A stretch of 29,447 nucleotides of DNA from a virus. Where the stretch lies: positions 1 through 29,447 of IMG/VR virus record IMGVR_UViG_3300042542_000793, one strand, 5' to 3'. The notes below the pieces were generated by a model. That model searched no databases, was not told the DNA's origin, and worked only from the letters and a program-made list of their open reading frames with translations. The translations under genes and the position numbers were made by a program. Shown here in pieces: positions 15,987 through 29,447 of this stretch (the stretch's first letter is position 1; each line of letters starts with the position of its first letter).

Positions 15987-18830
15987 TCAATCAGCATTGG
16001 CCTTTTCAGCCTCGTCGTACTGCGTGGGGTCCACGAAATCGTCATCGTCAACCTTGAACCATAGGCAATGGATTGGGTCACCGCTAACCGCAGTACCCTT
16101 GGACAGGCGGATACCATCCTTCTTGATAAGGCGTCCCTCTGTCTCCAGCTTCTTGATGGTGTCGTTGTAATTGATCTGGAACTTCACGCAGTAGTCCTTG
16201 AACGACTTGGCAATAATGTACATGCGCTTGGTGTCAGGCTCAATCCGCACCAGCAACTCACCGCGTGGTTCGCGCCTCGGCAGCGCTTGCATCTTGGTCC
16301 GCCGATCAACTTCACCGTTAACCACAAGGATGTGCTGCATATTACGGTACAGGTAGTCAGCAACAACCTGACGTACGCTATCCACAGGAGCTACACTATT
16401 CTTGCGTAAGTCGTTAATCATACCGCAGGAGTAATGGTAGATACGGTCCATGTCCCAGTCTATGAGGCCACAGTTAATGGCTGTCAGACCTCCTGTTATG
16501 TTACTAGAAACAGTCGCAGACCAGAACCGTTCTTTAGGTTCAAGCTGGAGTTCGCGGTCAATCTTAATCTGCAAAGCGTCAGCCATGCGCTGGGTACGCT
16601 CCATATTCTCAAGTACGTACCGCATGTATATAGGACCGGCGTGGCCGTAGTTCTTGAATAAATCACGGTCGAACATCTGCTTGGCTTCCGTGGTATTAAG
16701 CCCCTCAACCTTATTGATCGGGTACTCAATCAGGCGCATCAGTTCGCCTTCTGGGTTGTTCTTAATGACCGACAGCTTTTCAGCAAACGAGGAGTTCGAC
16801 GTAGCCACCGTGATACTCTGCCATGTGGTGTTGTTCTCACGAAGCTCATTGGTGCCAGCTTGCATACGCTCCTTACCCTTACCGTTTGATAAGGCGTAAA
16901 GGAAATCCGAGTATTCCAGCGGACCCATGTTGGTCAGTTCGTCCATCGTAGGTGGGATGTTGTTAAGGATACCGACCCACTGCAAGCGTCCGTTGAGCGT
17001 GTCGTTCTGCTTTAGGCGCAGTTCCTTGGGGTGTCCGTATACGCTGTTAATCATATTCAGTACCGTTGACTTACCAGTACCGGAACGAGCGTTAAATAGG
17101 TTGATGACTGCCCCTGTCTGGTCGAGGAATCGCAGCAGCGGTGACCCAAAAGCGCTAAGCGCCGCAAAGGCATGGGGTTCCAGCCCCGGCGTATCGTAAA
17201 GTGCCCAGACCTTCTTCCACTCTTCGAGCGATCCTACCGGCCCCATGAACTTAGCCAGCGGGCGTGTTGTCTTTGATGGCGGCGAATGAGCCACGCCATC
17301 GACATGGATTTCCTGACTGCCTATGATAAACTTACTGCCGTTGTCGGCCCAGCCAAATTGTTGGCGCATGATTTGCTCCTTGTCGCGGTATTGGATGTCC
17401 TTCATCATCAGTGAGATGAATTCCATCAGGTGTGTAAATTTCTTCCCCATGCAGATAACGCCCTTGGACGAGAGCGCCTTACGAAGCTCTTCGGGACTGG
17501 TTATCTTAAACAGGGGTACATGGAACTCTTTGGTATTGTTATGCGGCAGGTGCAGCCGAAACATCACGACGTTACCATCAATGCTATCGTCCATGATCTT
17601 GGTTGGATATAGGTCGAACTCGTAGACCAGCATCGGCTCTGCTTCTTCTGCATCCTTAGGCGGCTTCTTCCATATACCGCCGCCTTCGCCACGGTAGAAC
17701 GGAAAGGGGTACTTCGATACAACGTGGCTCTCAGTTACCCCGTTAATTACCTCAATCACAACGTGGTCTTCTTCGGCTTCACGTACTTTTTTGCCGAGTT
17801 CTTTCGGACCCATGACAGTACCGAAGTGCGGACAGCCCTCACATAATTCTGGGTTGACACTCTTGAACTTGGCGCAGCTAGTCGCTTTGCGGATGGTAGC
17901 TACCTTCTTGTCTATGGTATCCGGATCATAGTCTGGGTGACCCTTCGACATCATGTGGACCGCAGTGTCAGCGTCCTCACACATAGCCGCCACAGACAGC
18001 GCGTAGAACCACTCGTAGTAGCCAATAGTGTCTTGGTGTTTATAGGCGTTTAGAAGCTGGTTACACCCATCTCCCCTAGCCGTGCGCTGCATGATTTGTT
18101 TGAAGTTGTAACCTATGCCGTTGTGCCGTGCCAGTTCCCGTGGCGATGGCTGGTAGTCATCGTCAAAGATTGTCGGCTTCGCCTTGACCCCTAAGATAGA
18201 GCGCATCTCCTCGAAGGCGATAGGCTCACCGACATGGATAAACTCGACCGGACGCGGCTCTTCCTGCTTATAGTTAAACGTACCCGGCACACGCAAGATA
18301 CGTGCCACTTCAAACACCGCGTTATCGACGTAGAAGTTCTGAGTGCGGCACACTTCTTTGAAGCGCTCTGCCACAAGCTCCCAATCCCGACGCGAGATTT
18401 CTTCCTCAAGAGGCCAGTAGGCATGGATGCCTCCCCCTGAGTTTACTAGCGTAGGAGCAGGAAGACCCACTGATTCGCAAAAAGTGCGAAGCGCAGCTAA
18501 CCCAGCTTGCTGGTCGATATACCCATCCGGCCTACCAGTTTCCGCATTGATTTCGGCTTTGCTAGGGCCACAGTCGATGTCGAGCCAGAATGCCTTGAGG
18601 GCTTTTACGTTTTCCTTAGTTCGGTTTAATCCGGTCTCATATTTAGCTACGCCAAAGAACACGTTGCGCTGCTGTTGCATAAACGTCTGGATGCACTCAT
18701 CGGCTTCCTCGCGTGTGGCTACAATATCCTGCCTAACGTCCTTTGGCCCTTTGATACCCACGATTACAAACCAGCCCGAAGCTGGCTGCACGAGGTCTAA
18801 GAGGTCTGGTTGCTGCATTACATCACTCAC
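15987..18830 (-). CDS. PrimPol-helicase replication protein (AEP primase plus P-loop helicase)
   Basis: A 947-residue protein from a GTG at 18830. An ATG at 18818, seven bases after GGTGAG, is an attractive alternative giving 943 residues. Residues about 20-200 are an archaeo-eukaryotic-type primase: FWLDID (Asp84, Asp86) and SGGGIHAYW (His136) are the metal and nucleotide motifs. Residues 319-335 carry CxxxxxxxxxxCxxCxH, a possible metal site. Residues about 480-780 are a helicase-like ATPase with Walker A SGTGKST (583-589) and Walker B PTMDELTN (Asp630, Glu631), similar to DUF927-type helicases. The C-terminal 90 residues look winged-helix-like. It would prime and unwind DNA for the polymerase at 26244-28061. 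It is the last gene before the terminator at 15723-15756. Confidence 0.88.
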   Translation of the reverse strand: MSDVMQQPDLLDLVQPASGWFVIVGIKGPKDVRQDIVATREEADECIQTFMQQQRNVFFGVAKYETGLNRTKENVKALKAFWLDIDCGPSKAEINAETGRPDGYIDQQAGLAALRTFCESVGLPAPTLVNSGGGIHAYWPLEEEISRRDWELVAERFKEVCRTQNFYVDNAVFEVARILRVPGTFNYKQEEPRPVEFIHVGEPIAFEEMRSILGVKAKPTIFDDDYQPSPRELARHNGIGYNFKQIMQRTARGDGCNQLLNAYKHQDTIGYYEWFYALSVAAMCEDADTAVHMMSKGHPDYDPDTIDKKVATIRKATSCAKFKSVNPELCEGCPHFGTVMGPKELGKKVREAEEDHVVIEVINGVTESHVVSKYPFPFYRGEGGGIWKKPPKDAEEAEPMLVYEFDLYPTKIMDDSIDGNVVMFRLHLPHNNTKEFHVPLFKITSPEELRKALSSKGVICMGKKFTHLMEFISLMMKDIQYRDKEQIMRQQFGWADNGSKFIIGSQEIHVDGVAHSPPSKTTRPLAKFMGPVGSLEEWKKVWALYDTPGLEPHAFAALSAFGSPLLRFLDQTGAVINLFNARSGTGKSTVLNMINSVYGHPKELRLKQNDTLNGRLQWVGILNNIPPTMDELTNMGPLEYSDFLYALSNGKGKERMQAGTNELRENNTTWQSITVATSNSSFAEKLSVIKNNPEGELMRLIEYPINKVEGLNTTEAKQMFDRDLFKNYGHAGPIYMRYVLENMERTQRMADALQIKIDRELQLEPKERFWSATVSSNITGGLTAINCGLIDWDMDRIYHYSCGMINDLRKNSVAPVDSVRQVVADYLYRNMQHILVVNGEVDRRTKMQALPRREPRGELLVRIEPDTKRMYIIAKSFKDYCVKFQINYNDTIKKLETEGRLIKKDGIRLSKGTAVSGDPIHCLWFKVDDDDFVDPTQYDEAEKANAD

Positions 18831-20781: not shown

Positions 20782-22323
20782 TTATTCCTCCGTTATCTGT
20801 CTATATAAATCAATGATACGTTTGTGGTTGTCGATGTTACCCCGTAGCATGGAGTAAAGCCGCTCTTCCACTGGGCTTCCTTTAATATGCACAATGGTCA
20901 TCGCGTTCTTCTGCCCCGTACGATCAATACGTGCGTTGGCTTGAAGGTAGGTTTCCACGCTAGTGGTAGGCGCGTACCAGATAATGGTATCTGCTGCCGT
21001 TAGGGTCAGGCCGTGGCTCGCTGCCTTGGGCTGGATGAGGAGGACACGGGGGTTCGGTTCTGTCTGGAAGCGACGCACAATATCTGTGCGCTTGTTAACC
21101 GGAACCTTACCGTTGATGACGTCGCAGGTAATCTTCTCCTTCTCCATCAAAGCGCGTAATAGCTCAATGGTATGGGTGAACGGCACGAATACCAGCACCT
21201 TGTTGCTGGCTTCTTCAATCACCTCCAGCACCACGTTAAGGCGGTTGGACACATCGAACTCTAGGACTTCCCCAGTATCCGTATACACCGCACCTCCGCT
21301 TATCTGGAGTAGCTTGTTGAGTTTGGTCGCTGCGTTGATCGCGCTGACCTCTTCGCCTTGGGCCTCGAACAACATCTGGTTCTTAAGCTGGGCATAGAAC
21401 TTGCGCTGCTGCGGAGTGAGCGGCGCTTCACGTTCAATGTGGGTTACAGATGGTAGGTCCAGACAATCTTTCTTCTCGAACCGGATGGCCGGTTGTAGAA
21501 CTTTATGGACGATGGCATCCGCACTGGGCCTCGGTGCCCATTTGAACTGGGTCACCTTCATCATCACGCTGTCGCGGAACGCGCCATAATACTTCGGACA
21601 TCCCTTCCCTCCTGCCAGACGAGCCAACCCATAAGCATCGATAGGGCTTTGTGCTGCTGGCGTACCAGTAAGCATCCACATCCGGGGATTAATTTCACGT
21701 ACGATCCGGTCCAGAATTTTCCAGCGGTTAGTCGTGGGGTTTTTGTACGCATTGGCCTCATCGATCACGATCAGGTCGAAGCCACCATTGACGATGGCAT
21801 CCTTGACTACGGCCACGCCATCGAAGTTTATGATAACAAAGTCGGAGCCAGCGTTGATGATCTTCTCACGCTGCTTAGCTGCCCCATGTGCAACGCTACA
21901 CGAACGGTGCATGGCAAACTTAAACAGGTCTTGCTGCCACGCTGACTTCATGATTGACAACGGGCAAAGAACAAGGACGCGCTTCACCAAGCCCTTCTTC
22001 ATGAGGTAGTCTGCTGCCCAGATGACACTGGCTGTCTTACCTGTACCCTGTTCGTTGAAGCAGAAGGCGCGTCTGCGCAGCGACAAGAACGAGGATGTGG
22101 TCTTCTGGTGGTCAAACGGCTTGAACTTACCCGTCCAGTCATAGGACTTTAGGATAGGCGAGGGGGTATCCTCGAAGCCAAGGTCCGTTAGTATCTCAGC
22201 TTCATTGTGCCCCCATTTGACAAGGACGCCTTCTTGCACCTCGGTGCTTTGGTGGATGTTGTCCGTTATGACAGACGGGTCCTGAGCGTTGACGAGCAAC
22301 GCCTTATTCTCAATAATTTCCAC
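20782..22323 (-). CDS. SNF2-family DNA helicase/translocase
   Basis: A 513-residue protein starting at GTG, with AAGGAGCAAACT upstream. It is a compact two-lobe superfamily 2 motor without extra domains. Lobe 1 has motif I EQGTGKTAS (Lys96), motif II DEAN (188-191) in VIDEANAYKN, and motif III LTGTP (218-222). Lobe 2 has VLVFVPFTHTIELL, the GLTLTAADTIIWY motif V region and motif VI QANARIDRTGQ (462-471). SNF2 proteins hydrolyse ATP to move on duplex DNA; in phages they accompany replication or recombination genes. Here it stands between a RecB-like nuclease group and the SSB/primase group. DEAN replaces the commoner DEAH/DESQ. Confidence 0.92.
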   Translation of the reverse strand: MEIIENKALLVNAQDPSVITDNIHQSTEVQEGVLVKWGHNEAEILTDLGFEDTPSPILKSYDWTGKFKPFDHQKTTSSFLSLRRRAFCFNEQGTGKTASVIWAADYLMKKGLVKRVLVLCPLSIMKSAWQQDLFKFAMHRSCSVAHGAAKQREKIINAGSDFVIINFDGVAVVKDAIVNGGFDLIVIDEANAYKNPTTNRWKILDRIVREINPRMWMLTGTPAAQSPIDAYGLARLAGGKGCPKYYGAFRDSVMMKVTQFKWAPRPSADAIVHKVLQPAIRFEKKDCLDLPSVTHIEREAPLTPQQRKFYAQLKNQMLFEAQGEEVSAINAATKLNKLLQISGGAVYTDTGEVLEFDVSNRLNVVLEVIEEASNKVLVFVPFTHTIELLRALMEKEKITCDVINGKVPVNKRTDIVRRFQTEPNPRVLLIQPKAASHGLTLTAADTIIWYAPTTSVETYLQANARIDRTGQKNAMTIVHIKGSPVEERLYSMLRGNIDNHKRIIDLYRQITEE

Positions 22324-22341: not shown

Positions 22342-22623
22342 TTACTTCTTCTTACGTTCCCGTGTACTGGTTTCTGACACTAGGTTGCGCTTGCTGTCGC
22401 GCTTGAATGAGCGGTTGGATGATGCGCTCTCGACGCGCAGTCCGGTCTTATTATTACCACCCTTATCGAATGCTTTAACGTGAGCAACGTCTTTACCATC
22501 GCCCTTATGGGCTTTACCAGCTTTCACCATCTTGGCACGGGCTGCATTGCGCATAGCGCGGTTCTTCTTCTGCACTGCCGTGCCTTGGTACTTCGCGTAC
22601 TCTGCCTTATAATCTCTGGCCAT
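22342..22623 (-). CDS. Small basic protein with HNH-like motif
   Basis: A 93-residue, Lys/Arg-rich protein. The ATG at 22623 overlaps the upstream stop (TGATG) and has GGAGG five bases before it; a GTG one codon earlier is less likely. Residues about 44-75 read GKDVAHVKAFDKGG ... LRVESASSNRSFKR. That follows the HNH layout H-x5-GG-x-L-x7-N-x3-K, but the central Asn position is altered and no zinc cysteines are present. I recall similar proteins in many phages near packaging or replication genes. It may be a nicking nuclease or a nucleic-acid-binding derivative. It is followed by the SNF2 gene after 18 bases. Confidence 0.6.
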   Translation of the reverse strand: MARDYKAEYAKYQGTAVQKKNRAMRNAARAKMVKAGKAHKGDGKDVAHVKAFDKGGNNKTGLRVESASSNRSFKRDSKRNLVSETSTRERKKK

Positions 22624-23297
22624 CACCGCCTCCGTGGGGGTTTATAATGCTCACAACTTACCACAGGACACCACCCACATAAAGGGCTTGTCTTGGCATT
22701 CCATACGCCGTTGCCGATGGCAGCATCCAACTGGTCTAGCTGCTCGTCGAACACGGAGAAGTATTGATCCTGCTTCTCACGTAGGTGTACCTTCTTAGGA
22801 AACTCGTTACTAACAACATACGCTAACGCTGACTTGATCTTCTGCACCTCTGGATAGTGTACGAAGATAGCACCAGCCATAAGGTCAAGCTGCTTCATGT
22901 CTGCGTACTTGGCGTTCTTGCCTGTCTTGTAGTCGATCATAAAAGCTACATCGTTATCCACGATGAGCAAATCGACGATGCCACGCCACCATACGTCCTT
23001 CGCAAAGAAGGTAGTAGGCTCGTAGCCAGCATCCGTCTTCCTGACACCTAGCTTTAGCTCGGTATGCTTCGTACCTTCCTTAGCAGCCAGCGGCTCCACG
23101 ATGGGTCGCATGTAGGCAAACTTCTCTGGGATAGGTGTGCCGTGCTTAACGTAATGCTCGGCAGCTTCATGGACTGCGGTCCCATAGTCAGCAGCTTCCC
23201 CCGGAATATCCTTGACGTCCTTTACCACCTTGAGGTGGTAATACTTCTTCGGACATTGGTCGAAGGTCTTGATGCTGCTATAGGACCACGCTGTCAT
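22623..23297 (-). CDS. RecB-like PD-(D/E)XK nuclease with iron-sulfur-type cysteines
   Basis: A 224-residue protein. The N-terminus SYSSIKTFDQCPKKYY is the typical opening of RecB/Cas4-type nucleases. His43 in GTAVHEAAE, Asp109 in WRGIVDLL, and Asp122/Lys124 in IDYKTGK form the metal-binding core; Gln136 lies in the QLDLMAG helix. Cys15 plus Cys207, Cys210 and Cys215 (CGWCPVVSC) are spaced as in AddB/Cas4 proteins that hold an iron-sulfur cluster. It would degrade or resect DNA ends in recombination or host-DNA breakdown. It overlaps the HNH-like gene by one base and lies one base after the HTH-DUF6378 gene. Confidence 0.88.
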   Translation of the reverse strand: MTAWSYSSIKTFDQCPKKYYHLKVVKDVKDIPGEAADYGTAVHEAAEHYVKHGTPIPEKFAYMRPIVEPLAAKEGTKHTELKLGVRKTDAGYEPTTFFAKDVWWRGIVDLLIVDNDVAFMIDYKTGKNAKYADMKQLDLMAGAIFVHYPEVQKIKSALAYVVSNEFPKKVHLREKQDQYFSVFDEQLDQLDAAIGNGVWNAKTSPLCGWCPVVSCEHYKPPRRR

Positions 23298-23868: not shown

Positions 23869-24627
23869 TTACTTAAGATTGCCGCCGCTCTTCAGGATGT
23901 CACCACCAAACACATACGTGCCTACATGGTATAACTGAATGAACGGGTGGGCGTGTATTTTGCCACCGTGGGTGCGCCACAGTTCGCAAAAATGATAATC
24001 CTCTGACAACAGCGCCCCGCCCTCGTCGATGGATGTAGCGAAAAACTCATGGGTCAAAGGTTTGACGTATTCGCCTGTCTCTGGGTCTTTGAACGACGAT
24101 ACGCGATAGGTTGGGACATGGGGTGTAAGATGCTCAAACACTCCCCGCTTGATAAGCATGAAGCCTGTGCCGCCATGCCGCACTTCAATGCAGCCTTCCT
24201 CGTCTGTGTGCGTATCGCTATTGCCGATCATGTTGAACACGAATGCTCCTGCATGGTCCGCGAGGTCCGTCTTACCTTCAAGGGCAGCACGGTTGACGCT
24301 ATCCCAGTTCACTTCCTTCTTAGGGTAGATGCCACATACAAGGTCCTTGTCGGCCAGCAGAAGGTGCGCGATAGCCTCCCCGTCAAAACCAATGTCAGCG
24401 TCGATGAACATCAGGTAGTCATGGTCGCTCTCAAGGAATATCCGTGCCAGTTCATTACGGGCACGGGTGATGAGGCTCTCGTTCATAATCTGACACCACG
24501 CTACGTTGACACCGACTTCCCGCATCTTAGCCATGGTCATCAATAAGCCTTGCACATAGTGTCCCGTGCACATGCCACCATACATAGGGGTGGCGATCAT
24601 CAGGCTTGGACGTTTCTCTTCAGTCAT
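23869..24627 (-). CDS. GT-A fold glycosyltransferase
   Basis: A 252-residue protein. The N-terminus SLMIATPMYGGM begins the nucleotide-sugar fold, and the metal-binding DxD is at Asp76-Asp78 in YLMFIDADIGF. GGTGFMLIKRGVF (152-164) and LLSEDYHFCELWR (207-218) are the acceptor and catalytic-base regions usual in phage family-2-like transferases; HVG at 234-236 is a late metal ligand candidate. It could modify phage DNA bases, virion proteins or host surface sugars; nothing here decides which. It overlaps the small SANT-like gene by eight bases. A methyltransferase lies three genes upstream in the same operon. Confidence 0.82.
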   Translation of the reverse strand: MTEEKRPSLMIATPMYGGMCTGHYVQGLLMTMAKMREVGVNVAWCQIMNESLITRARNELARIFLESDHDYLMFIDADIGFDGEAIAHLLLADKDLVCGIYPKKEVNWDSVNRAALEGKTDLADHAGAFVFNMIGNSDTHTDEEGCIEVRHGGTGFMLIKRGVFEHLTPHVPTYRVSSFKDPETGEYVKPLTHEFFATSIDEGGALLSEDYHFCELWRTHGGKIHAHPFIQLYHVGTYVFGGDILKSGGNLK

Positions 24628-24793
24628 TTGCTTTCGCTTTCTTTAGTTTTCTATACCGGCATTCCACGGCAGCAATCGTAAGCCCCATTTGTTCTGCCAT
24701 ATATGCTGGTCTTAGGCCGTGTTGATAATAACTTAGTAATTCGGCGTCCTTCTCAGGTGTCCACTTACGTGCGCCCCGTTTTACAATTGGCAC
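24620..24793 (-). CDS. 57-residue SANT/Myb-like helix-turn-helix protein
   Basis: This gene is too short for common cut-offs. It starts at a GTG that overlaps the previous stop (TAGTG at 24791-24795), with an in-frame stop just upstream. The product has the pattern RKWTPEKDAELLSYYQHGLR, then PAYMAEQMGLTIAAVECRYR and a lysine-rich end. A leading W-TPEKD helix, a second helix and a recognition helix (TIAAVECRYRKL) are the layout of SANT/Myb-like and GcrA-like DNA-binding proteins. It overlaps the glycosyltransferase start by eight bases, so translation of both is probably coupled. It is likely a small regulator; its target is unknown. Confidence 0.72.
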   Translation of the reverse strand: MPIVKRGARKWTPEKDAELLSYYQHGLRPAYMAEQMGLTIAAVECRYRKLKKAKAND

Positions 24794-24969
24794 TACTTAC
24801 CGCCTTTGAAACGACCACGGCTATCGCGGTCCGTAAGCTTGTGCAGTTCAGCATTGAGCCGCTCGTTCTCGCGCTTGATACCTTCGGTGGATGCAAAGTT
24901 GCGTATCAACGCCACCAAATATCCGAGTACGAACAGCCCGATAAAAATAAAAGTTAGTAACCAATCCAT
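24793..24969 (-). CDS. 58-residue single-pass membrane protein with coiled coil
   Basis: A short gene with AAGGA before its ATG (inside the tail of the methyltransferase gene). Residues 3-23 are a strong membrane segment (WLLTFIFIGLFVLGYLVALI), followed by a charged heptad-like helix (STEGIKRENERLNAELHKL) and a basic glycine tail. The layout, N-terminal anchor plus cytoplasmic or periplasmic coiled coil, resembles short i-spanins, but it is far from the lysis genes and in the early/replication operon. A membrane-anchoring or superinfection role is another option. Its TAG overlaps the next gene's GTG by one base. Confidence 0.65.
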   Translation of the reverse strand: MDWLLTFIFIGLFVLGYLVALIRNFASTEGIKRENERLNAELHKLTDRDSRGRFKGGK

Positions 24970-24973
24970 GTCC

Positions 24974-25579
24974 TTATCCTTTCTTGCGTACTACTAGTTG
25001 ATAACCTACGTAGACAATCTCCACTTCCTCTGCGAACAGGTTAGTGAAGGCGTCGATGGCTGCTTTAGGGCGATGCAGGATATCCCGTGCGTTCGGTGTC
25101 CATAGGTAATCGTCAAACACCATCACCCCCTTGGGCTTGAGCAACGGCCAAGCCATACACGCATCGGTCAGCACATCAGGTGCCTTGTGGCTTCCGTCGA
25201 TGTAGATGAAGTCGAAGCTATGCTCAGACGGGTGGCTCTGGAGTTCTGCCAACTTCTTAATTGAGGTGCCCTTAAGTTGGAAGATACGGCGGCGCGGCAG
25301 CTTTTTTGTAGCTACAATTAAGTTGTGCCGGAAACGATCCTCGACTCCATCCATATCCTCTTCGCCGTGTTCCTCGCCACCTTCCCATGTGTCGATACAG
25401 CGCAGGTGGTCACCATCTTGCATCATGTTCTCAGCAATCCAGATGCTACTGCGTCCTTCAAAAGAACCGATCTCAAGGAATTGGCGGTGTCCTGCTACGC
25501 CTGATAACATAGGGGTTAGCTGGTTCCATACTTCCGGTGCCCAGTTGAACCAGTCTTTTGTAAATTGATACTCGGTCAT
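24974..25579 (-). CDS. SAM-dependent methyltransferase (Methyltransf_24-like)
   Basis: A 201-residue class I methyltransferase. SAM-binding motif I is FLEIGSFEGRSSIWIAE (34-50), with motif II acid at Asp63 in CIDTWEGG. FDFIYIDGSHKAPDVLTD (122-139) and LLKPKGVMVFDDY (146-158) are the later core strands, diagnostic of the Methyltransf_24 type. There is no target-recognition domain or DPPY/NPPY motif, so it is not a typical DNA adenine or cytosine methylase; a small molecule, sugar or protein substrate is more likely. It overlaps the winged-helix gene by four bases (ATGA). Confidence 0.85.
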   Translation of the reverse strand: MTEYQFTKDWFNWAPEVWNQLTPMLSGVAGHRQFLEIGSFEGRSSIWIAENMMQDGDHLRCIDTWEGGEEHGEEDMDGVEDRFRHNLIVATKKLPRRRIFQLKGTSIKKLAELQSHPSEHSFDFIYIDGSHKAPDVLTDACMAWPLLKPKGVMVFDDYLWTPNARDILHRPKAAIDAFTNLFAEEVEIVYVGYQLVVRKKG

Positions 25580-26046
25580 ACACTACTTTCCATTACGGCG
25601 CTGTAGTCAAAGGACTCAACGCAATCGTTGATTGTTATTAATTCATCACCGAAGCCTTCGACCTCGGCGTTATACGTATAGACTTTCTTCGGTACTTTTA
25701 TGCTATTCTGTGCAAACAGAATGCCGTTTTGGGTAGCGCGCCAGAAGCCGGAGTGCTTCTTGGTAGGGTCTTCAGTCCCATGTCGCTCTACCAACCCCCA
25801 CCAACGTAATGTCGGTAGTTGATTTGATCTTACAAGCCAGCGCGGTGCGCGTTTGGGGACATCTACCCAGTCACCGTTGCCGCTATGGTGCGCCAGCCAA
25901 ACTAATGACCGCGCCATAGTTTCATTAAGGCTACGCGGGTAAATTTTCCCCCACCTACTACAGCAGGGACAATGCCCCCCATCTGTTTCTATAGCCCCGC
26001 GCCATATGGCGCGAAGCTCCGATAAAAATGTATGTTTATCCGCCAT
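25576..26046 (-). CDS. Winged-helix-like protein with CPCC motif
   Basis: A 156-residue protein. The ATG at 26046 follows AAGGAGCAAGCT; the open frame continues upstream but lacks a better site. Residues 25-29 read HCPCC, a possible metal or redox site. Residues about 64-127 have a winged-helix pattern (PKRAPRWLVRSNQLPTLRWW, GLVERHG, then GFWRATQNGILFAQN). The sequence RATQNGILFA is the usual 'wing' of MarR-like phage proteins. The N-terminus may be an independent helix bundle. It shares an 11-base overlap with the sigma-like HTH gene and ends on the start of the methyltransferase gene. Regulation of phage or host genes is plausible. Confidence 0.65.
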   Translation of the reverse strand: MADKHTFLSELRAIWRGAIETDGGHCPCCSRWGKIYPRSLNETMARSLVWLAHHSGNGDWVDVPKRAPRWLVRSNQLPTLRWWGLVERHGTEDPTKKHSGFWRATQNGILFAQNSIKVPKKVYTYNAEVEGFGDELITINDCVESFDYSAVMESSV

Positions 26047-26254
26047 AGCTTGCTCCTTCTCTCTGCTTACGTGCCTCATCAATACGGGCTTGCTGTGCTG
26101 CTCGGCGGTCTTCCCTAGCTACAACCTGCCGAACCCGTTCTGGTGTGACACCATACTTTCGCCCTAAGGCTGCGAACGTGGCTCCCTGTTCATTATGCTC
26201 ATGCCGTATAACAAGGTCTCGCTCAGCGTTAACCCTAACTCCCTTAAGCGCCAT
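26036..26254 (-). CDS. Small sigma-70 region-4-like helix-turn-helix protein
   Basis: A 72-residue protein. The ATG at 26254 follows GGGAGCAAGCT; the frame is open further upstream to 26278 but without a ribosome site. Residues about 25-48 read ATFAALGRKYGVTPERVRQV, the helix-turn-helix signature of sigma factor region 4 (the 'GVTxERVRQ' recognition helix that reads -35 boxes). The rest is a charged helix. No region 2 is present, so it is not a full sigma factor; it may bind DNA alone or contact host RNA polymerase as an anti-sigma or co-activator. It ends REGASYGG, residues encoded by the next gene's ribosome site and start. Confidence 0.72.
   Translation of the reverse strand: MALKGVRVNAERDLVIRHEHNEQGATFAALGRKYGVTPERVRQVVAREDRRAAQQARIDEARKQREGASYGG
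26041..26056. repeat. 16-base repeat, copy 1 (gene-junction cassette)
   Basis: On the minus strand the sequence is GGAGCAAGCTATGGCG. It is the ribosome site plus start codon of the 25576-26046 gene and also encodes the C-terminal GASYG of the upstream gene. An exact second copy is at 26249-26264, 208 bases away. Confidence 0.9.
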
Positions 26255-28061
26255 AGCTTGCTCCCATCTTGCTCTCACAGTTTAACGGCAGTGCCGTTGC
26301 CCACTTGGGGCGTATACGCATACAGGCTTCGACAAACTGCCGCGCCTCTTCCGCTTTCTCAGTAGGGGCAATCACCCCCACAGCGTCATGGACAGTCATC
26401 ACCACGCGCAGGCGTCGTGCTACCATCAGCATCTGCTCCCCGATTATGATACGGGCCAACGCTTGACAGATGTTTTCGACAGCCTTCCCTCCGTATATGC
26501 GCGTAGGAAGAACAGACCTGCCCTTCTTCTGGTCGTAGACCATCTCGGACTTACCCTCGTGCATTATATAGCGCAGGTTCGGGTACTTGAGGCTCAACCC
26601 ATTAGGCAGCTTGATACCGTCCGCTCCGCACACCGTCAGTACACCATCCAGACCTACCGGTGCTGTCTGGTTGTTGGCCATAGCGTCCAGCGCATCACCC
26701 GTCTGCCGCCACAGAAGCGGGATCATAGGATAAGTCTCTCTGTATACGCTAATAATACGTTTGCACTCTTCTAGCTCCATGTTGACACCAAAGGTCAGAA
26801 GTTGCGCTTGGAACTTGGCAGCGCCCATCCCGTAGCCACAGCCCAAGATGGTGGTCTTACCCACGAACCGCTGCGGGTCTGTTACCTCATCGACAGGCAC
26901 ACCATAGATGGAGCTTGCCATAATCTTATACACATCCTCACCTTGGTCAAACGCATCAACAAGGTCTTGCTCCCCAGCCAGCCATGCCAAAGTCCGTGCT
27001 TCAATCTGGCTGCTATCGCAGTCGATAAAGGTGTAGCCCTCTGGTGCAAGCATCGCCTTCTTCAATGGTGACTTGCGCGGTAGGTTCTGAAGGTTGACCT
27101 TATCGTCACCGCCCCAGCGTCCAGTATGTGCAGCATAATAGCGTAAGGGGACGGGTAGTGTCCCGCGATCAGCAATCTTAATGAACCGTTCGGTGCGTGT
27201 CTCTTCCAGCGTAGACTTAACGCCCAGCCGCGCAGCGACGATGGCTTGCACCACAGGGTTCTTGTGTTCCAGTAGCGCCTTAAACTCTTCGTCGGTCTTG
27301 GCGAAAGCAAAGGTCTCTTTGCCTGTAGCGGGACTAATCTTCATCGGCGGCTCAACGCCCAGACTACGCAGGGTCTCAGCCAACTGCGGGTTGGACATCA
27401 GGTTGTCCTTGGTGATGAGCGCCTTACCTAGCAACTGGCTCTTCATGTGCTGCACTCTAGCCAAGTGTTCCTCTAGGGCTTGCTTGTTTATGGTCAGCAC
27501 AGGCTCGGTGAACATACGTATCGTCAGGTCGATCAACCGAAACTCAACCGCTGGGAAGTCCACAGCAATACGTTGGAACAAGTCGTAGGTCAGGTCTGCA
27601 TCGTTGCAACAGTATGTGCCATAGCGGGACATCTCTTCTGGTGTGAAGTCCAGCCGCTGTTTACCCAGCGCATTGATTACTTCTGTGCCCTTGACACCTA
27701 GCTCGTATCGTTCGGCTGCTTTGGCTAGGCTATTGCCAGCATCAGGCCCGTCGATAGCTCTAAGCATGGAGAGCGTGTCCACAATCCGCTTAGGCCGGAT
27801 GTCAAACTGCCAGTTAAGGATAGCCATATCGAACACAGCGTTGTGCGCCAGCGCGATAGCGTTGTCCCAATCGAATTGGTCGAGAAACATCTTGGTCGCG
27901 GCCTTCGGGCCGGAGAAAAACTTAGCTTCCCCGGAGTCAACCTTTACTGATACGCCAATAACCTCAAACTCGGAGTCACGGATATACTCCTCCGTTGTCA
28001 TCTTGGAGAGGCTAAACTTCTGGCTATAGAAGGTCTCGAAGTCGATTGTGATGACGTTCAT
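26244..28061 (-). CDS. Family A DNA polymerase with 3'-5' exonuclease
   Basis: A 605-residue protein from the ATG at 28061, chosen because it overlaps the preceding stop (ATGA). Exonuclease motifs: Asp7/Glu9 in TIDFETF, Asp78 in AHNAVFD, and NDADLTY at 153-159. Polymerase motifs: YYAAHTGRW (308-316), motif A with Asp349 in CDSSQIEAR, motif B RFVGKTTILGCGYGMG with Arg398, Lys402 and Tyr410, and motif C VHDAV with Asp559. Counting from Lys402 (E. coli Lys758), the residue equivalent to Phe762 is Leu406. Motif C has Ala560 in place of the usual Glu. It is somewhat short for the family and has no 5' nuclease or thioredoxin loop that I can see. It is the main replicative polymerase here. Confidence 0.95.
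   Translation of the reverse strand: MNVITIDFETFYSQKFSLSKMTTEEYIRDSEFEVIGVSVKVDSGEAKFFSGPKAATKMFLDQFDWDNAIALAHNAVFDMAILNWQFDIRPKRIVDTLSMLRAIDGPDAGNSLAKAAERYELGVKGTEVINALGKQRLDFTPEEMSRYGTYCCNDADLTYDLFQRIAVDFPAVEFRLIDLTIRMFTEPVLTINKQALEEHLARVQHMKSQLLGKALITKDNLMSNPQLAETLRSLGVEPPMKISPATGKETFAFAKTDEEFKALLEHKNPVVQAIVAARLGVKSTLEETRTERFIKIADRGTLPVPLRYYAAHTGRWGGDDKVNLQNLPRKSPLKKAMLAPEGYTFIDCDSSQIEARTLAWLAGEQDLVDAFDQGEDVYKIMASSIYGVPVDEVTDPQRFVGKTTILGCGYGMGAAKFQAQLLTFGVNMELEECKRIISVYRETYPMIPLLWRQTGDALDAMANNQTAPVGLDGVLTVCGADGIKLPNGLSLKYPNLRYIMHEGKSEMVYDQKKGRSVLPTRIYGGKAVENICQALARIIIGEQMLMVARRLRVVMTVHDAVGVIAPTEKAEEARQFVEACMRIRPKWATALPLNCESKMGASYGA
26249..26264. repeat. 16-base repeat, copy 2 (gene-junction cassette)
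   Basis: An exact copy of 26041-26056 in the same orientation. Here it starts the sigma-like HTH gene and encodes the last residues, GASYGA, of the DNA polymerase. Confidence 0.9.
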
Positions 28062-28186
28062 TCCCACCAATCCTCTTCCATCTCTTTGCGCTCTTGCTCG
28101 GTTATCTTCGGTGCGGTTACAATGAGGTAGGTGGCTAAGGCTACCACTCCCAAGAGTACAAAGAATAAGGGTGTGTCGTTAGTCAT
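28058..28186 (-). CDS. 42-residue single-pass membrane protein
   Basis: A very short gene locked between two others: its ATG overlaps the upstream stop (TGATG at 28184-28188) and its TGA overlaps the polymerase ATG (ATGA at 28058-28061). Residues 6-25 are a membrane helix (PLFFVLLGVVALATYLIVTA), followed by a charged tail, KITEQERKEMEEDWWE. A role at the membrane near replication, in superinfection exclusion or in host takeover is possible. No family is recognised. Confidence 0.65.
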   Translation of the reverse strand: MTNDTPLFFVLLGVVALATYLIVTAPKITEQERKEMEEDWWE

Positions 28187-29421
28187 CACGCCACCTTCTT
28201 ACGGGATTTGCTTGGTTTCGGCAGGGAGTAGGGGGTTGAGTAATACTGCCTGATGAGGTCCACGGATTTTTCAATAGATACAAAACCTCGCGGAGCGTCT
28301 TGTCCATCAAACTCAAAAGTCTCGACGGACGCATCGTAAAAGTCTTGGTGGTGGAAGCCCAGCCCACTAACTTCTATCCCATACCCCATCCACGAGAACG
28401 AGCGCTCTCCTCGGTAATGCTCACGCACATAGCTTGTACGTCCATCGGTATCACGGGTGAAATCACCTACATAATGGAGGATACGCTTACGCTTCCCGTC
28501 CGTAGCAGAACCCGTCACACGTTTAGCGAAGAACCGCTTACCATCTCGCCGGTCAATCGTCCACGACGCTGCCATATCAGATTTATTCGCACGAACTAAG
28601 ATAGCCTCTGACGGACGCTGGGCGGACAAACATATATTACATAGGGTAGTGGCAATCTCGTCTGTTGTCTGCACTTCCATACCTAATTTTTTCTGTTCGG
28701 TGACCATCTCTCTAAGGAAGAATGGAGTTATCGTCTTGCGGTGAACCACATTAGTATTACCCCTGCGGTGCTTGAAACCTTTGTTACTGTTATGTCGTAT
28801 CACCTGCTGAACTAACTTATTTTCGTTCACAACAGACATTTTATGGTTCTCGTCATAATGTACGAAAAAGCTCTCCGCGAAAGAACCAAGGTCATGGTTG
28901 TACACGATCACTACACGGTAACAAATTCCTACAGGCAAGTGGCAGTAACCGCCCTCCCGTCCTACGTATGTCATGCCACCTTTGAGCCGCATCATATATA
29001 TGATCGACGCACTGTAAGTGTCTTCCTTTTTTTGGTATTGGTCGCTCTTCTTGAAGAAGATACAACGCATCATGGGCGGATTATCCAAAACTTTTGGTAG
29101 AAGCGTGTTATGCCGAAACCCTGAATTTTCGGGTACTACAACACCGCCAAGCTTAGCCATAATAGAGTATGTGGCAGGGTCGTATTTCCGTAACGCCTTG
29201 AGGTCGTCGAAATATCCCGGCAGGTAGTCCAACATATCATGTATGGATACAGCGTTGGCTAAGCCATCCACCGTCAGGTTTTCTTCATCCTTGCTTGAAA
29301 TGGTTCTGGGCTTCACCACTAGCTCGGCGGTGTGCATAATCTTTTGAGGACGCAGCCGCTGCCACAAAGCCCTGATTGTTTGGAAGATACGCGTATTGCG
29401 TAGGTCAGTAATTTTTATCAT
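28186..29421 (-). CDS. Unrecognised 411-residue protein
   Basis: The ATG at 29421 has AAGGAG eight bases upstream; a GTG at 29430 overlaps that site and is unlikely. The protein is mixed alpha/beta, Arg/Lys/His-rich and has no membrane segment. Visible features: a basic N-terminus (IRALWQRLRPQKIMHTAELV), a beta-rich middle with GGMTYVGREGGYCHLPVG, a CNIC pair near residue 265, a basic stretch (GKRFFAKRVTGSATDGKRKR) and a lysine-rich end (PKPSKSRKKVA). The basic patches suggest nucleic-acid contact. I do not recognise a family or a catalytic motif. It is the first complete gene seen in the leftward operon. Confidence 0.7.
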   Translation of the reverse strand: MIKITDLRNTRIFQTIRALWQRLRPQKIMHTAELVVKPRTISSKDEENLTVDGLANAVSIHDMLDYLPGYFDDLKALRKYDPATYSIMAKLGGVVVPENSGFRHNTLLPKVLDNPPMMRCIFFKKSDQYQKKEDTYSASIIYMMRLKGGMTYVGREGGYCHLPVGICYRVVIVYNHDLGSFAESFFVHYDENHKMSVVNENKLVQQVIRHNSNKGFKHRRGNTNVVHRKTITPFFLREMVTEQKKLGMEVQTTDEIATTLCNICLSAQRPSEAILVRANKSDMAASWTIDRRDGKRFFAKRVTGSATDGKRKRILHYVGDFTRDTDGRTSYVREHYRGERSFSWMGYGIEVSGLGFHHQDFYDASVETFEFDGQDAPRGFVSIEKSVDLIRQYYSTPYSLPKPSKSRKKVA

Positions 29422-29447
29422 GCTCCCCACTCCTTATCGACTATGAC
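29418..29447 (-). CDS. 3' end of a further upstream minus-strand gene (partial)
   Basis: One minus-strand frame enters from the window edge and ends in a TGA that overlaps the ATG of the 411-residue gene (ATGA). The visible tail reads VIVDKEWGA. The overlap style matches neighbouring junctions, but nine codons alone are weak evidence. Confidence 0.35.
   Translation of the reverse strand, partial: VIVDKEWGA

Follow-up and report, generated by a model that had tools for sequence, protein, structure and literature searches.

Does the residue at position 762 of a viral family A DNA polymerase tell us how the phage that carries it lives? Viral ecology uses Leu762 as a proxy for a temperate lifestyle, and the question arises at the polA gene of the DNA analyzed here (IMG/VR record IMGVR_UViG_3300042542_000793, positions 1 to 29,447; hereafter the window), whose product has Leu at this position and HDA instead of HDE in motif C. 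A sequence-only reading of the gene had fairly cited the published link between Leu762 and slower or temperate replication (PMC6302109), and had proposed this polymerase as a useful test of that link. We consider it quite probable (about 85%) that the gene encodes the replicative PolA of a tailed phage in a large, mostly aquatic clade of the Leu762 Group I type, and that neither Leu762 nor HDA reports lysogeny there. The sequence-only interpretation as a whole was partly supported.

The polymerase and its active-site residues

The gene and the motifs discussed below are as follows (protein numbering, with E. coli Pol I positions where given).

26244..28061, minus strand: polA (ATG at 28061, stop at 26244), a family A DNA polymerase of 605 aa that includes a 3'-5' exonuclease domain
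28035..28043, minus strand: exonuclease motif D7-x-E9 (DFE), register read by eye
27828-27830, 27612-27614 and 27600-27602, minus strand: the other proofreading residues, D78, Y150 and D154, respectively
27000..27023, minus strand: motif A, D347-C-D349-S-S-Q-I-E354 (Asp349 catalytic, Glu354 steric gate, Asp347 an extra Asp at position 703)
26832..26858, minus strand: motif B, K402...L406...Y410, with Leu at position 762
26382..26390, minus strand: motif C, H558-D559-A560, HDA where E. coli has HDE

The product matched Pfam DNA_pol_A (1.1e-38) and DNA_pol_A_exo1 (5.4e-7), and PHROG 17, DNA polymerase (1.6e-91). An AlphaFold2 model computed from the clade alignment had a mean pLDDT of 85.9, and its top Foldseek match was Klenow (8oo6, E 1.9e-20). 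Klenow was the best match among solved structures in phmmer, with QRFVGKTTILGCGYGMG aligned with QRRSAKAINFGLIYGMS. MAFFT alignment with PolI of E. coli MG1655 and with T7 gp5 equated D349 with D705 and E354 with E710 in motif A, K402, L406 and Y410 with K758, F762 and Y766 in motif B, and H558, D559 and A560 with H881, D882 and E883 in motif C. The phmmer alignment with Klenow agreed in motif B, and neither alignment showed a shift in register. In other words, the earlier placement of Leu406 at position 762 was correct, and so was the numbering of Ala560 after Asp559, to the residue.

The protein has the DNA_pol_A domain, the catalytic Asp residues of motifs A and C, and the Lys and Tyr of motif B that are expected of family A; the acidic residue after the motif C Asp (the Glu883 equivalent) is replaced by Ala560. 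Given that Ser-bearing phage members of the family are active, Glu883 is common in family A rather than strictly defining for it. In the exonuclease domain, D78, Y150 and D154 correspond to E. coli D424, Y497 and D501 in the MAFFT alignment, which shifts the N-terminus, so that the DxE register had to be read by eye. All of these residues are invariant among the relatives that cover each of them, and the proofreading site is, judging by them, intact.

The replication gene set

We identified three further genes with replication-related matches.

20782..22323, minus strand: SNF2-type helicase (Pfam SNF2-rel_dom 3.7e-19, Helicase_C 7e-18)
22623..23297, minus strand: RecB-like PD-(D/E)XK nuclease (Pfam PDDEXK_1 1.5e-17; PHROG 69, exonuclease, 4.7e-27)
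15987..18830, minus strand: primase/helicase-like protein (DUF927 2.6e-26; PHROG 8841, DNA primase/helicase, 5.3e-29)

Of 29 related records, all (29/29) encode SNF2 and none an RNR large subunit. It has been reported that RecB-like genes accompany 70%, and SNF2-like genes 55%, of Leu762 Group I (Nasko 2018), and that the Leu762 groups are without an identifiable RNR (PMC6302109). With RecB-like and SNF2-like neighbours and no RNR, the polymerase of the window would fall in this group, to which we assign it by gene content. It shares with Group I (PMC6302109; Keown 2022, PMC9069017) Leu762, nearby SNF2 and RecB-like genes, the lack of RNR and an aquatic origin. Those papers group polymerases by position 762, whereas the sub-clade of the window adds HDA and Asp703; a word search of the two papers found no mention of position 883. 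The PolA proteins of the closest isolates, Pseudomonas phage KPP25 (Kochitakasuvirus) and Rhizobium phage RHph_TM3_14A, are 36% identical to that of the window over the full length. Like the clade, these phages have Leu762, an SNF2 helicase, a RecB-like nuclease and no integrase, but unlike the window they carry HDE in motif C and Thr or Ala at position 703.

Leu762 and HDA among relatives

In a first sample of relatives (62-89% identity, window included), Leu762 occurred in 81/81 sequences, with HDA in 78 and HDS in 3. A wider sample again gave Leu762 throughout (164/164); here, all sequences with at least 50% identity to the window had HDA or HDS, and those below 50% had HDE, with one exception. 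In the widest sample of distinct relatives, Leu762 was present in 287/287, and position 883 was Ala in 245, Glu in 30 and Ser in 12. This sample breaks the 50% border, as HDA is also found in a sister clade with ~45-49% identity. The use of RHph_TM3_14A and KPP25 as queries gained few further loci. The equivalents of D705, D882, K758, E710, R668 and Q849 were invariant across the 287 relatives.

Given the invariance of Leu406 and the few states seen at residue 560, neither can be put down to chance or sequencing error. On a tree inferred with the trait columns removed, position 762 had to change only twice and position 883 eight times. Together with the fixation of Leu762, this makes Leu762 a deep marker of the clade and HDA a later, derived state. 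HDA had been presented as an oddity of a single gene but characterizes a large derived clade, and HDS at the same place has a precedent in the Tt72 polymerase (PMC9324360). The clade consists of very large numbers of abundant, mostly aquatic tailed phages, and the gene in the window is an ordinary member of it. We also considered whether HDA is a compensation required by Leu762, and rejected this idea, since sister and isolate Leu762 enzymes retain HDE and since Phe762 enzymes carry HDA.

Lifestyle of the clade

If Leu762 makes a slow, accurate polymerase fit for temperate replication, as argued after Schmidt 2014 and Nasko 2018, then the phage should be temperate or pseudo-temperate. A published association in cultured phages and mutagenesis of Taq (cited in PMC6302109) speak for this, and an integrase or serine recombinase was present in 6/16 of the Leu762 isolates that we sampled, as BLAST hits to the window and hence non-randomly. 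However, both were absent from the other 10/16, the Phe762 isolate Takoda carries a serine recombinase, and work on T7 found Tyr and Phe equal in fidelity (PMC13228545).

The genomes of the clade itself also argue against it. The 29-kb window has no tyrosine recombinase, as had been noted from its sequence, and none turned up in the 72 IMG/VR records tested from the clade and from its sisters (many of 55-74 kb) or in KPP25, RHph_TM3_14A and Rollin, the three nearest isolates, with a search that detected integrases in 5/22 isolates. These records may be fragments, none of them carrying a completeness value, and the window is probably about half a genome, because relatives reach ~60-68 kb. Serine recombinases were likewise missing from 26 clade records and the same three isolates. 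A ParA-type ATPase was found neither in 30 records, all of relatives, nor in these isolates, a result that excludes just one kind of prophage because two temperate phages included in the test also lack ParA. A scan of a genome collection (84,980 species) returned two relatives and no true prophage of the clade. One relative was a 5-kb MAG contig and the other (L106) came from a Dehalococcoidia MAG. L106 had the look of an integrated phage, but we rejected it as such, given that 100-N scaffold gaps flank the phage piece on both sides. The piece spans ~3.8 kb (L106:8699-12707, CP070693.1), carries genes of the PolA, VRR-NUC-like and methyltransferase types, and is a scaffolding chimera in a public MAG chromosome. 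As a separate observation, the record of RHph_TM3_14A has an attL annotated inside an ATPase gene (L084:3151-3164); no integrase was found in that genome, and the annotation is doubtful.

Previous reports point the same way. Virulent phages of Bradyrhizobium elkanii have Leu762 (PMC12656738), so that the proposal to use the present polymerase as a test of the lifestyle link had already been overtaken, and a Kochitakasuvirus relative of KPP25 was called lytic for its lack of integrases (PMC13340246). The phage collection that we searched held no cultured member of the HDA clade. The lack of integrase and ParA genes is no proof of virulence. Nevertheless, the integrase, ParA and prophage searches, the isolates and the literature together do not support the lifestyle link for this clade; we regard a temperate or pseudo-temperate phage as very unlikely, and infer that the clade is most likely obligately lytic. 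Universality of both residues in the clade regardless of lifestyle had been named in advance as evidence against the link; this held fully for Leu762 (287/287), whereas HDA or HDS was only nearly universal (257/287). Given that Leu762 is fixed in a clade without temperate signs, it marks ancestry and not lifestyle, and the existence of a whole abundant Leu762 clade in which no lysogeny genes were detected is a further argument against inferring lifestyle from a single residue.

Is the polymerase active?

Catalysis would follow the usual two-metal mechanism via Asp349 and Asp559, with Lys402, Tyr410 and the steric-gate Glu354 retained and the proofreading exonuclease intact. Leu406 takes the place of an aromatic side chain with a role in placing the incoming nucleotide, and HDA, a derived state of the sub-clade, would not abolish function. 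In T7, the change from Tyr to Leu lowers activity by 97% and is lethal, the phage cycle not being completed; in the authors' inference, polymerases with a natural Leu require compensatory changes (PMC13228545). Because that change is lethal, we assume that native Leu762 enzymes are adapted to it; since Leu762 is ancient and fixed in the clade, the rest of the enzyme has presumably adjusted. Primer extension in vitro was reported for 5/8 native viral Leu762 enzymes (PMC9069017).

As for motif C, the Thermus phage Tt72 polymerase is a family A enzyme that, like the window's, has no carboxylate at position 883 and that has measured activity, the residue being Ser in Tt72 and Ala in the window. 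Its S616A mutant, altered at this very position, keeps ~76% activity, and its two catalytic Asp mutants drop to ~4% (PMC9324360). Thus, by analogy, HDA is likely compatible with activity. Our search for literature on E883A or Glu883 in Klenow found none. Loss of a named active-site carboxylate could also be taken to mean a degenerate, inactive polymerase domain in a phage whose genome is replicated by another polymerase. However, the six E. coli equivalents listed above are invariant in all 287 relatives, Tt72 S616A is active, and the sampled Tequintavirus and Herelleviridae polymerases carry HDS, so we find an inactive domain extremely improbable.

Covariation of positions 703 and 883

The motif C change is a feature of the clade with a possible partner in motif A. 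Position 703 precedes the catalytic Asp705 by two residues; it is Asp in the clade of the window and Ala in the HDE sisters. In a larger Leu762 sample, the Glu883 sequences carry Ala or Thr at 703 in 30/30 cases, and the Ala883 or Ser883 sequences carry Asp, Asn or Glu, except for seven with Ser. In a Phe762 lineage whose motif C reads HDA, HDS, HDG or HDC, position 703 is mostly Glu, Gln, Asp or Asn; the sole Glu883 member (L444) of this lineage has Ala703. Among 407 sequences, 336 have D/E/N/Q703 without E/D/Q883, 54 the reverse, 16 neither and one both; that is, D/E/N/Q703 occurs in 336/352 sequences without E/D/Q883 vs 1/55 with an acid or amide at 883.

Since the loss of Glu883 nearly always goes with D/N/E/Q703, the third active-site carboxylate may sit in motif A. 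Tentatively, then, we propose that in several phage family A lineages Glu883 was lost and D/N/E/Q703 takes over its role, that this may have arisen at least twice, under Leu762 and under Phe762, and that the window, with Asp347 and Ala560, could be an example; on the alignments at hand, we hold this possible but rather doubtful. We give even odds to the covariation reflecting shared ancestry only, that is, a few changes in lineages set apart by dozens of alignment columns. About 45 columns, position 703 among them, distinguish the HDA/HDS clade from its HDE sisters. By corrected mutual information with 883, position 703 ranks second of 333 partners over the 407 sequences, which argues against mere ancestry, and third within Leu762, but only 10th within Phe762 (87th by raw mutual information). 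The recurrence in the unrelated Phe762 lineage, including the Ala703 of its Glu883 member, also argues against it. In an independent-pairs test, the pairs followed the prediction (on average 4.2 in the opposite direction vs 0.1 in the same), yet at most six pairs were well supported and the median p was 0.125. The association is therefore suggestive but not significant, because there are too few independent origins; the two positions and the residue classes were picked post hoc, and the tree was a quick one. There are exceptions: T5-like phages combine HDS with Ala703, two contigs combine it with Val703, and a small group has HDA with Ser703.

We also examined position 764 (Leu to Ala or Cys) as the partner of 883 and rejected it, since it changes in the clade of the window whereas the Asn703 sister clade has Leu764 with Ala883. 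This sister clade (L208-L287, ~45-49% identity to the window), with Asn703, Leu764 and HDA, possibly represents a stage leading from the Glu883 sisters to the Asp703 clade of the window.

The Gordonia phage Nodigi-type PolA resembles that of the window in combining HDA with an acidic residue at 703 (Glu), but has Phe762 and belongs to a distant lineage; the combination is of separate origin there. E. coli Pol I (Klenow) and T7 gp5 share with the window the fold, motifs A, B and C and the catalytic Asp pair, and differ in having Phe or Tyr at 762, HDE, and Ser or Gly at 703. That Leu762 occurs in virulent phages was already known; the fresh part of this work is the association between 703 and 883, found post hoc. 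If it is true, then a hallmark active-site carboxylate of family A can be relocated, and the exchange offers a simple mutant pair for testing.

Other genes in the window

The stretch between the nuclease and helicase genes and polA (23869-25579) contains a clear Methyltransf_24 gene and, in addition, an Anp1-like (glycosyltransferase) match that is weak. A 168-aa protein without a Pfam match adjoins polA (25576-26082); its close homologue holds the same place in L106, so that the gene order is conserved. Directly upstream of polA lies a protein of 414 aa that matched neither Pfam nor PHROG (28186-29430). Finally, a 247-aa protein at 1945-2688, with no PHROG match, consists of repeated GVxGxGxxGTV-like segments and is perhaps a virion surface protein.
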